From positions 1-35,348 of IMG/VR virus record IMGVR_UViG_3300027974_000082: a DNA stretch of 35,348 nt; one strand, written 5' to 3'. The notes under the pieces were generated by a model that was not told the DNA's origin, made no database searches, and saw nothing but the letters and a program-made list of their open reading frames with translations. Shown one piece after another: positions 21,840 through 35,277 of this stretch (the first letter of the stretch is position 1; every line of letters starts with the position of its first letter). This DNA comes from a virus. Both the position numbers and the translations under genes were made by a program.

Positions 21840-21900
21840 TCAATCATAAGAAGTTGCTTTATAGTGCAACTTTGAGCCGTATTTGATTGATAACCGGCTC
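21839..21900 (+). other. Structured element behind the terminase gene
   Basis: Hairpin 1: AAGTTGC / GCAACTT (21851-21857 / 21866-21872). Hairpin 2: GAGCCG / CGGCTC (21874-21879 / 21895-21900) with a 15-base loop. That loop contains TGATTGAT (21884-21891), the exact complement of ATCAATCA (21839-21846) next to the terminase stop. The parts can form nested or pseudoknotted pairings. No good T-tract follows, so simple Rho-independent termination is uncertain. Confidence 0.5.
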
Positions 21901-21901
21901 A

Positions 21902-21937
21902 TTTACCGTTCATCCCTGATATTTACCGTTCATCACA
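21902..21937 (+). promoter_or_regulatory. Shared upstream module, site 2, with a double box
   Basis: TTTACCGTTCATC at 21902-21914 is repeated as TTTACCGTTCATCACA at 21922-21937, exactly 20 bp later (about two helical turns). The second box starts 41 bp before the -33 TTTG. An A/T block follows, as at the other two sites. The double site may give stronger or cooperative binding. Confidence 0.75.
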
Positions 21938-21962
21938 ATTATTTAAAATAGTTAGCAATATG

Positions 21963-21995
21963 TTTGGATTGTGTATATAAGTTGTAGTATATTTG
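21963..21995 (+). promoter_or_regulatory. Strong Bacteroidota promoter of the small-gene and tail block
   Basis: TTTG (21963-21966), 21-base spacer, TATATTTG (21988-21995). The palindrome TTTGAT-TT-ATCAAA at 21992-22005 overlaps the -7 element and the expected start site, as a repressor operator would. The promoter rules out an upstream ATG at 21971 for the next gene. Confidence 0.75.
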
Positions 21996-22042
21996 ATTTA
22001 TCAAACAAACAGAGAGGCACTCTTAAAACTGCAACACTATTT

Positions 22043-22318
22043 ATGAAAAATCAACAATTTGAAACAATCAAAAATTTTATTGAAGAAGAAGTTAGTAGCA
22101 CAAACTTAATGTTAGCTTGTCGTATTGCTTTAAAATTAATGCCTTATTCAGATGCTTTAGTTGAAATGATAGAAACTAAAGATGTAGATATGCTAAGGCA
22201 AACAATTGCTCACGATTATAATGGCTTAATGTCTATTGATGAAGATTTTTTACCAAGATTAAAAGCAAATAAAAAATTATCAGATTTAGTAAATGAGTTA
22301 CAAACTATAAATAATTAA
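22043..22318 (+). CDS. Hypothetical helical protein
   Basis: A 91-residue acidic, helical protein starting MKNQQFETIKNFIEEEVSST. The start at 22043 is fixed by the promoter, because an upstream in-frame ATG at 21971 lies before the -7 element. It is the first gene of the second early transcript. No domain is recognised. Confidence 0.65.
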   Translation: MKNQQFETIKNFIEEEVSSTNLMLACRIALKLMPYSDALVEMIETKDVDMLRQTIAHDYNGLMSIDEDFLPRLKANKKLSDLVNELQTINN

Positions 22319-22326
22319 CCCAAAAA

Positions 22327-22352
22327 GTCAGGGGTGCGACTGACCAACGCAC
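22327..22352 (+). ncRNA. Compact H-type pseudoknot candidate in a leader
   Basis: Stem 1 GTCAG / CTGAC (22327-22331 / 22340-22344). Stem 2 GTGCG / CGCAC (22334-22338 / 22348-22352). Loops of 2, 1 and 3 bases satisfy the geometry of an H-type pseudoknot. It ends seven bases before ATG 22360 and is GC-rich in an AT-rich genome. It may control initiation of the following small membrane peptide or bind a ligand. Confidence 0.5.
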
Positions 22353-22359
22353 ATATATT

Positions 22360-22443
22360 ATGAAACAGAAACAATATAACTTTGAGGCAGTAGTAATAAT
22401 GATATTAGCTATCTTAGCAACTGCATACATTCAAAATAATTAA
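22360..22443 (+). CDS. 27-residue membrane peptide
   Basis: MKQKQYNFEAVVIMILAILA and seven further residues: a basic start followed by one hydrophobic helix. The ATG lies directly downstream of a pseudoknot candidate. Short single-helix peptides are frequent in this block. It could regulate a host membrane protein, but no function is visible. Confidence 0.5.
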   Translation: MKQKQYNFEAVVIMILAILATAYIQNN

Positions 22444-22450
22444 ACATACT

Positions 22451-22520
22451 ATCCCTGCAACAAACAATCAAATAAATTAAACAATAGGGATGTTGGTTAG
22501 TTTCCTAGATGGGCAGGGAT
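22451..22520 (+). other. Leader with two mutually exclusive hairpins
   Basis: ATCCCTGC (22451-22458) is perfectly complementary to GCAGGGAT (22513-22520). Its first six bases can instead pair with AGGGAT at 22486-22491. The second hairpin would end 12 bases before ATG 22533. Such a choice of partners is typical of switch or attenuator leaders, but chance cannot be excluded. Confidence 0.4.
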
Positions 22521-22532
22521 ATTTTAAAAACT

Positions 22533-22781
22533 ATGACTATGAATAAAAACATTGAAGATTTATTATATCCTAATAATAATAAACTTATACTTAATGATGA
22601 TGAAATAACTACAACAATAGTAGACTGTGAATTAGATGAATATGAATGTAAGTTTAATGGAGCAGAAGATATACAAATAAATACGGAGGGTTATACCCAT
22701 ATAACATTAGATATTGATACACTTGAATCATTAATAACATTAATTAAGAAAGCAGAAAAGATGTATAATAAAATAAAATAA
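22533..22781 (+). CDS. Hypothetical acidic protein
   Basis: An 82-residue acidic protein. I chose ATG 22533, which has the AAAACTATG leader common here, instead of ATG 22509, which lies inside the hairpin sequence; ATG 22539 is also possible. Residues include NNNKLILNDDEITTTIVDCE and a helical end LITLIKKAEKMYNKIK. No family is recognised. Confidence 0.55.
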   Translation: MTMNKNIEDLLYPNNNKLILNDDEITTTIVDCELDEYECKFNGAEDIQINTEGYTHITLDIDTLESLITLIKKAEKMYNKIK

Positions 22782-22785
22782 CATT

Positions 22786-22950
22786 ATGAATAACTACGAA
22801 TTAAAACAAGGCATATTAGACAGGATGGAAATAGAGGGTCTCATTCAAAAGATACAAAGACTTGAAAAGCAATTAGCTGAAAAGGAATTGGAACTTAAAA
22901 ATATGACTAGGGAATTAATATCATTTCAGGAGGACTTTTATAAAGAATAA
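22786..22950 (+). CDS. Small coiled-coil protein
   Basis: A 54-residue protein, almost entirely charged helix: LIQKIQRLEKQLAEKELELK has a clear heptad pattern. It should form a dimeric coiled coil. The next ATG follows three bases after its stop. Confidence 0.55.
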   Translation: MNNYELKQGILDRMEIEGLIQKIQRLEKQLAEKELELKNMTRELISFQEDFYKE

Positions 22951-22953
22951 ACT

Positions 22954-23025
22954 ATGAAAGTAATATTAGCAATTATTATATGGGAGTTAGCCAAATGGAT
23001 ATTCTATAAATTCATAAACGATTAG
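22954..23025 (+). CDS. 23-residue membrane peptide
   Basis: MKVILAIIIWELAKWIFYKF and three more residues: one hydrophobic helix with aromatic edges. Leader AAACTATG and tight spacing on both sides support translation. Function unknown. Confidence 0.45.
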   Translation: MKVILAIIIWELAKWIFYKFIND

Positions 23026-23027
23026 CA

Positions 23028-23132
23028 ATGAAGTACATAAGATTTTTTATCATTAGTATTCCAATAGCTTGTTTAATATATGTAATTGTATTATCTTTAT
23101 CCAAAATCAAAAGCATATGTGGAACAAAATAA
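23028..23132 (+). CDS. 34-residue membrane peptide
   Basis: One hydrophobic helix (RFFIISIPIACLIYVIVLSL) and a basic tail KIKSICGTK, from ATG 23028. It overlaps the next gene by 16 bases. It is the third single-helix peptide in 800 bases. Confidence 0.5.
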   Translation: MKYIRFFIISIPIACLIYVIVLSLSKIKSICGTK

Positions 23133-34758: not shown

Positions 34759-35277
34759 ATGGCATGTGCATTAACACAAGGATATACCCTTGATTGTCGT
34801 GATTCCCTAGGTGGAATTACAGAGGTTTATTTTATTGCAAGTTCGGATATTACTTCAAGTACAGAAGCTAGTGGTGTTATTACTGCTTTAGTAAAAGCTA
34901 CAGGTAAGAAGTTTTACAAATATGAGTTAACAAAAGGAACTTCAATGTTTACTGAAAACGTAGCATCGAATGTTCAAAATGGTACCTTGTTTTTCACTCC
35001 TGAATTAACAATAATCTTAAATAAATTACAAGCAAATACGAGAAATGAAATTCTTTTATTAGCACAAAATAGACTTACAGCAGTTGCCAAAGACAACAAT
35101 GGTAAGTTCTTTATGCTAGGTAAAACAAGGTCATTGGATTTGACTGCCGGTAGTGCTGCAACAGGTACTGCTGAGGGAGACAGAAGTGGTTATACATTAA
35201 CATTCACAGGAGCTGAACCTGCTTTAGCACCTGAGGTTAATAGTACAGTAGCTGCTGCTCTTACAACTGCAGGATAG
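34759..35277 (+). CDS. Tail-tube-like protein, copy B, complete
   Basis: A 172-residue protein starting MACALTQGYTLDCRDSLGGI, then a beta-rich body (YKYELTKGTSMFTENVAS; NNGKFFMLGKTRSLDLTAGS; GDRSGYTLTFTGAEPALAPE). The sequence and location resemble the major tail tube protein of Bacteroidota siphophages, which polymerises into the tail tube around the tape measure; a capsid decoration role is the alternative. Its 3' 129 codons recur at 2-391. A terminator follows 23 bases after the stop. Confidence 0.75.
   Translation: MACALTQGYTLDCRDSLGGITEVYFIASSDITSSTEASGVITALVKATGKKFYKYELTKGTSMFTENVASNVQNGTLFFTPELTIILNKLQANTRNEILLLAQNRLTAVAKDNNGKFFMLGKTRSLDLTAGSAATGTAEGDRSGYTLTFTGAEPALAPEVNSTVAAALTTAG

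Follow-up and report, generated by a model that had tools for sequence, protein, structure and literature searches.

The window, that is, the whole stretch of viral DNA analysed here (35,348 bases), carries terL, portal, DNA polymerase exonuclease subunit and tape measure genes recognised by PHROGs. A near-identical gene copy lies at each of its ends (59-391 and 34759-35277); the copies differ slightly, and their presence at both ends points to a genome record that is circular or has terminal repeats. A promoter, a variable gene, a compact pseudoknot (hereafter, the knot) and a small membrane peptide follow one another in this order (Table 1) between terL and the next conserved gene, with seven bases (22353-22359) separating the knot from the ATG at 22360. 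The surrounding segment (21840-23116) is a hypervariable cassette, in which relatives have zero to two knots and varying small genes, and it is likely a hotspot for accessory genes, among which anti-defence functions tend to be concentrated and may be represented here.

Table 1. Features of the knot region in the window
Feature	Coordinates	Strand	Basis
Bacteroidota-type promoter, TTTG-N21-TATATTTG, with -33 and -7 boxes; starts the unit	21963-21995	+	sequence; same place in relatives
First gene of the unit (variable; 91 aa; no match in PHROGs), with its end 8 nt upstream of the knot	22043-22318	+	
Stem 1, 5' strand GTCAG; covariation-backed part TCAG, 22328-22331	22327-22331	+	sequence, relatives
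Loop 1, GG; invariant among collected copies, but fixed by the search patterns	22332-22333	+	
Stem 2, 5' strand GTGCG; second position U or C, switching with its partner	22334-22338	+	covariation
Loop 2, single base A (relatives: mostly A)	22339	+	
Stem 1, 3' strand CTGAC; covariation backs CTGA, 22340-22343	22340-22344	+	
Loop 3, CAA; shorter or longer in relatives (UAA, NCAA)	22345-22347	+	
Stem 2, 3' strand CGCAC, then a conserved A at 22353	22348-22352	+	
27-aa peptide with one hydrophobic segment; exchangeable neighbour of the knot, not a fixed partner	22360-22443	+	

Read directly, 22327-22352 is GTCAG GG GTGCG A CTGAC CAA CGCAC, so that the layout proposed in the first-pass annotation (stems GTCAG/CTGAC and GTGCG/CGCAC interleaved with loops of 2, 1 and 3 bases, seven bases ahead of an ATG) is exact throughout. 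This is the single 5+5 bp H-type arrangement in the window with at least seven G-C pairs, and no such arrangement occurred in 60 dinucleotide-preserving shuffles of the window; for a degenerate motif with up to three mismatches allowed, the expectation was 0.00 occurrences. The exact 26-mer is found letter for letter in 29 other IMG/VR viral contigs, where the 26-mer itself stays constant and the flanking genes vary on both sides. Because it is repeated in this way between unrelated genes, the knot lies far beyond chance. Each stem, taken alone, is predicted to be stable in some context, and either strand of the sequence can be read as a knot. The minimum free energy fold has a competing hairpin between CCC (22319-22321) and GGG, which we rejected as a general part of the element since the C-run is absent in many relatives.

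The pseudoknot family and the covariation of its stems

When stem 1 was left free in the search pattern, at least 120 contigs were matched and the freed positions proved complementary (AATAG/CTATT, CAAG/CTTG, CGAG/CTCG, TGAG/CTCA, AATGG/CCATT and others); with the second pair of stem 2 freed and U-A forbidden, 36 contigs were matched, nearly all with C-G. At least as common is a short form with a stem 1 of 3 bp and UAA as loop 3 (CAGGGGYGCGACUGUAACGCRCA). Altogether about 283 distinct copies were gathered, 23-27 nt in size, mostly one and up to four per genome regardless of neighbours, with the family consensus (N)NCAG GG GYGCG A CUGN(N) (N)CAA CGCRC A and a strictly conserved core (GGGG, GCG/CGC, AA). 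A covariance model (R1) recovers 50 of the 51 records picked as family members, the one missed (G037) having a four-base loop 3, and it gave no match in the five records behind non-family loci (G005-G008 and G014). Variants at position 3 of stem 2 were rejected: among 43 and 9 loose matches for two loop lengths, none forms both stems convincingly, and these chance matches, mostly in coding sequence, were used as a negative control. A-U or G-C variants at position 2 of stem 2 (loci L216, L219 and L222), which have a weak stem 1 and lie inside coding sequence, were also taken as chance.

A covariation search in relatives, set beforehand as the test of the fold, found compensatory changes in both stems. 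Among 55 distinct sequences of the loop class of the window, 65 cells are changed on both sides of a pair, compared with 20.2 +/- 3.4 in shuffles (none of 500 reaching this value), and the covariation score is 0.289 as against 0.091 +/- 0.010; in every control with a slid register the covariation collapses. The changes on both sides fall at pairs 5-20 (UA, AU, CG, GC, GU), 6-19 (CG, GC, UA, AU, UG) and 7-18 of stem 1 and at pair 12-28 of stem 2 (UA, CG). The other pairs of stem 2 are uninformative: they are constant among these sequences, in part because they were specified in the search patterns. In the short class, where both of the stem 2 positions concerned were unconstrained, all 111 distinct copies pair (63 U-A, 46 C-G and 2 U-G). 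As judged from these compensatory changes, the element is an H-type RNA pseudoknot of two interleaved stems, as originally proposed. The claim of a 5-bp stem 1 holds for the inner four pairs (TCAG/CTGA) and fails for the outermost, G22327-C22344, which is paired in 17 and unpaired in 38 of the 55 relatives; the supported stem 1 is thus one of 4 bp.

The carriers include Bacteroidota-type phages, phages of Corynebacterium, Mycobacterium and Microbacterium, the phAPEC8 group, crAss-like phages and one microvirus record (Microviridae MG945485, unverified), and both phages that use Shine-Dalgarno (SD) sequences and phages that do not. In Corynebacterium phages, phi673 has two copies, BFK20 also carries the knot, and PSonyx gives four model matches (weakest E 6e-4). 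Among Mycobacterium phages the knot is found in LilMcDreamy, Vincenzo and Fishburne, with BLAST matches in 124 Mycobacterium records; it is also carried by the Microbacterium phage Pumpernickel, by the crAss-like cr50_1 and cr55_1, and by the Escherichia phages phAPEC8 and Ro121c4YLVW together with dozens of related records. These E. coli phage matches are weak singly by BLAST (E 0.09), and the covariance model scores them at 2e-12 to 3e-12 per genome. The 397 Mycobacteriales genomes searched for chromosomal copies gave five matches as against three for a reversed control pattern, and thus no evidence for such copies there. In GC-type phages with AGCAG as stem 1 (L192, L203, L207, L212, L215 and L226), the upstream genes differ, and the following gene often has a related beginning, H-I/L-I/F-E-I-P-E/Q/D-N/D/E.

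Rfam 15 has no match in the window at the gathering score and none around the element at E<=5; in relatives, nine gave no match at E<=1 and ten more gave tRNAs only. Known riboswitch classes (preQ1, SAM-II and others) were therefore rejected, permissive E-values included. The first-pass annotation, which had found no resemblance to preQ1 or SAM-II and raised the possibility of a new element, was right on the former, no Rfam 15 family fitting the sequence, and the element is apparently new. The preQ1, SAM-II and SAM-V riboswitches are small H-type pseudoknots upstream of genes; unlike them, the knot family is associated with no metabolic gene. Neither topic nor sequence-string searches of the open full-text literature turned up a description of the family, although subscription papers could contain one, and it appears to be previously undescribed.

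Position after stop codons and the promoter-gene-knot unit

In 262 of 277 copies, an open reading frame of at least 40 codons ends on the same strand no more than 30 nt before the knot, compared with 51 of 278 on the mirror side and 180 of 1415 (13%) random positions. The stop-to-knot distance has a median of 8 nt (6 nt in the short class), with 160 of 169 within 30 nt, whereas the knot-to-start distance is broad (5-129 nt). What follows the knot is diverse: a tRNA 3-5 nt on in cr50_1, cr55_1 and Pumpernickel, a new promoter directly 3' in L007, L053 and L157, a hairpin-plus-T terminator about 40 nt away in phAPEC8 and, in L316, a convergent gene, its stop codon directly adjoining the knot, which lies exactly between the two stops. 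A programmed readthrough or frameshift signal, which TAA CCC AAA AAG followed by the knot resembles, was rejected: of 142 contexts, 48 have the downstream start in the frame of the upstream gene, which is the third expected by chance, and the read-through tails are of all lengths.

The genes on both sides are exchanged. Before the knot there are 92 families among 162 genes, and after it 67 among 171; 27 upstream families occur with one downstream family and up to 5 the other way round. In 78 loci fetched by terL and not by the knot, a knot came next in 40 of 54 cases for families known to precede one, and came just before in 25 of 61 for families known to follow one; since both sets of families had themselves been chosen through the knot, these figures serve for comparison and not as absolute rates. 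An empty site also exists, L327 having the same flanking genes as L331 and L329 with no knot between them; as such relatives keep both genes, the knot is dispensable. Exchange on both sides and the empty site are what would be expected of a repeat kept only as a DNA recombination site, but such a site calls neither for a fixed sense orientation nor for a fixed spacing from stop codons, and compensatory changes would lower its homology, so that we consider this reading highly improbable.

A 27-residue membrane peptide is a fair description of the open reading frame at 22360-22443, which has homologues in relatives. The proposal that the knot belongs to the initiation region of this peptide, or forms its leader, is not supported: the spacing to the start is broad, the downstream gene is swapped or absent, and in the terL loci the linkage is stronger to the preceding gene than to the following one. 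A fixed link with the peptide was rejected as well, 12 of its 23 homologues near terL having no knot in front. Two families of peptides of 27-45 aa with one hydrophobic segment (D0 and D1) are found in Bacteroidota-type phages both with and without a knot nearby.

A more general control of downstream translation, in which the knot, in or near the initiation region, would limit or time initiation in the manner of the T4 gene 32 leader pseudoknot, or act on terminating ribosomes that would re-initiate, seems to us unlikely. It would account for the start codon found 5-45 nt downstream in most copies (7 nt in the window), for the recurrence of some downstream families, small membrane peptides making up 63 of the 171 genes, and for the order promoter, knot, gene in L098 and L343; however, the broad spacing and the low share of downstream families with a knot in front tell against it, there is nothing to initiate after knots that precede tRNAs, promoters, a terminator or a convergent gene, and the knot occurs in SD-using and non-SD phages alike.

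The preceding gene tends to have a promoter of its own. A Bacteroidota-type promoter (TTTG ... TAnnTTTG) lies at most 160 nt upstream of 53 of 104 genes followed by a knot, as against 38 of 1324 other genes (p 1.6e-42) and 1 of 68 genes that come next after a knot (p 7.5e-14), these p-values being too small because the loci are related. The enrichment, measured by consensus for promoters of the Bacteroidota type, is also seen away from terL (18/43 versus 13/706) and in the short loop class (19/57 versus 43/997). Among 53 loci chosen by terL alone, the interval from terL to the next conserved gene contains a knot in 39, and exactly one in 37, the commonest order being promoter, one variable gene, knot and small genes. 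Tandem units of the form gene-knot-promoter-gene occur in L007, L053 and L359. Short repeats TTTACCGTTCATC lie upstream of the promoter of the unit in the window (21900-21940), L007 and L053, and similar repeats are found between knot and promoter in tandem units. The unrelated genes gp36 and gp34 of Corynebacterium phage phi673 have the same leader of about 150 nt upstream and the same knot downstream. These near-identical leaders (L227 1270-1430 and 2146-2298) contain a hairpin ACCCCTAAAC/GTTTAGGGGT, a promoter-like stretch and a ribosome-binding site, and a similar hairpin plus leader precedes BFK20 gp33.

Phages have mosaic genomes, put together from small genes that are acquired singly. 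In lambdoid phages, morons are autonomous single-gene insertions between conserved genes, with their own promoter and an intrinsic terminator. The unit described here likewise has its own promoter, by consensus, and a variable gene inserted between conserved genes, and comparable knot units are also present in Corynebacterium phages; unlike the lambdoid morons, it has at its 3' side a pseudoknot, with no general U-tract, in the place of an intrinsic terminator. The recurring unit is thus, as far as its sequence allows it to be classed, moron-like, with the pseudoknot standing where a terminator would be expected.

This placement raises the question of a transcriptional element, at which RNA polymerase would pause or would terminate, as it does where a lambdoid moron ends, or, conversely, become resistant to termination, as polymerase is made to do by the HK022 put RNA. 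The polymerase is universal, in keeping with conservation across phyla, and knots are found immediately ahead of tRNA genes and ahead of a terminator. On the other hand, the knots of actinophages and crAss-like phages have no U-tract after them, no intrinsic terminator was found near the knot on the + strand of the window, and transcription apparently has to cross the knot to reach the genes and tRNAs that lie downstream; such an element is rather improbable.

The knot as a proposed 3' boundary

Established here are the covarying structure, the sense orientation, the position after stop codons, the link to single promoter-bearing genes and the exchange of genes on both sides. We infer, with a probability of about 0.5, that the knot sets the 3' end of the mRNA of the preceding gene and protects it, the stabilising role and its mechanism both belonging to what we infer. 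The knot would form in the mRNA as the 3' boundary of the transcript of that gene and block 3'-to-5' exonucleases. Downstream, the message would be cut in the spacer by enzymes of the RNase E or RNase Y type, or by RNase P where a tRNA comes 3-5 nt later, or transcription would terminate further down; trimming would then proceed only as far as the knot and leave the coding region intact. That the knot lies immediately behind the stop codon, that it is indifferent to the sequence downstream and that it can precede a tRNA so closely all fit best with a knot that defines and protects the 3' end. The knot would also serve as a joint for gene exchange between phages, since the knot and its spacers are common to many genes.

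Some observations count against the 3'-boundary reading. The 5' position of the knot in L098 and L343, the nearby start codon in most copies and the dispensability of the knot are among them, and the core is stricter than a physical roadblock needs, which suggests a specific partner. Such a partner would also be compatible with transcriptional, ribosome-linked or trans-acting RNA roles. In the last case, a knot cut from the 3' UTR would bind a host protein (a nuclease, a defence factor or a part of the ribosome) and its neighbours would be incidental; conservation of the core far beyond what the stems require, the number of copies irrespective of neighbours and their recurrence in accessory-gene regions are in line with this, yet a trans-acting or decoy RNA has no need to lie 4-16 nt after a stop or after promoter-bearing genes and would require the same target in hosts of several phyla, which makes it improbable. 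Type III antitoxin RNAs (ToxI, CptI and TenpI), which are tandem pseudoknot repeats beside a toxin gene, were rejected on the arrangement of copies, the knots being mostly single and otherwise usually hundreds of bases apart. We also propose, at somewhat less than even odds, that an undescribed pseudoknot family spanning several phyla specifically engages a universal host machine (ribonuclease, RNA polymerase or ribosome) and so punctuates phage messages behind single accessory genes, the pseudoknot serving across phage moron units as a general signal for the 3' end.

Several known systems offer partial parallels. The conserved intergenic PeSL elements of T4-type phages, mobile regulatory cassettes made of a stem-loop plus an early promoter, also accompany gene shuffling, whereas the knot is a pseudoknot and lies where a gene ends. 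REP/BIME elements and other structures that stabilise mRNA at its 3' end are intercistronic chromosomal hairpins; they resemble the knot in lying just past a stop codon, where they would protect the upstream message, and differ from it in that the phage element is a pseudoknot of 23-27 nt with an invariant core. To our knowledge, little is known outside lambdoid phages about how an added gene is expressed without disturbing its neighbours. The knot offers a 3' mark, recognisable by sequence, of single-gene units in phages of several host groups, and accessory genes could be found through it; so short and so strongly conserved an RNA is also a direct bait for its partner. A further parallel is the pseudoknot in the gene 32 leader of T4, T2 and RB69, which is tied to one gene and its protein gp32 and lies 67 nt upstream of the start (PMC3014915). 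Both are compact H-type pseudoknots of phage mRNA that adjoin an A+U-rich region and a start codon; the knot, in contrast, is found with dozens of unrelated genes, has no fixed downstream gene, has another sequence and sits after stop codons. A leader of the gene 32 type, upstream of the gene for a single-strand-binding protein that binds it, was rejected in view of the 67 downstream families and the occasional lack of any downstream gene.

Further features were observed near individual knots. In PSonyx (L234) and Pumpernickel (L232) the gene directly before a knot encodes an AAA-ATPase, and a gene for an RtcB-like RNA ligase lies nearby. In cr55_1 (L280 997-1151) and cr50_1 (L228 1226-1340), a tRNA-like sequence that the record does not annotate and ARAGORN does not call precedes the gene before the knot, and this gene may therefore lie between two tRNAs. 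In the window, a second intergenic element that looks structured (22445-22543) is found ahead of the next gene, with a closing helix ATCCCTGC ... GCAGGGAT and TAGATGGG inside, and in L015, L118 and L183 the knot is followed by a TAGATGGGG element similar to it.
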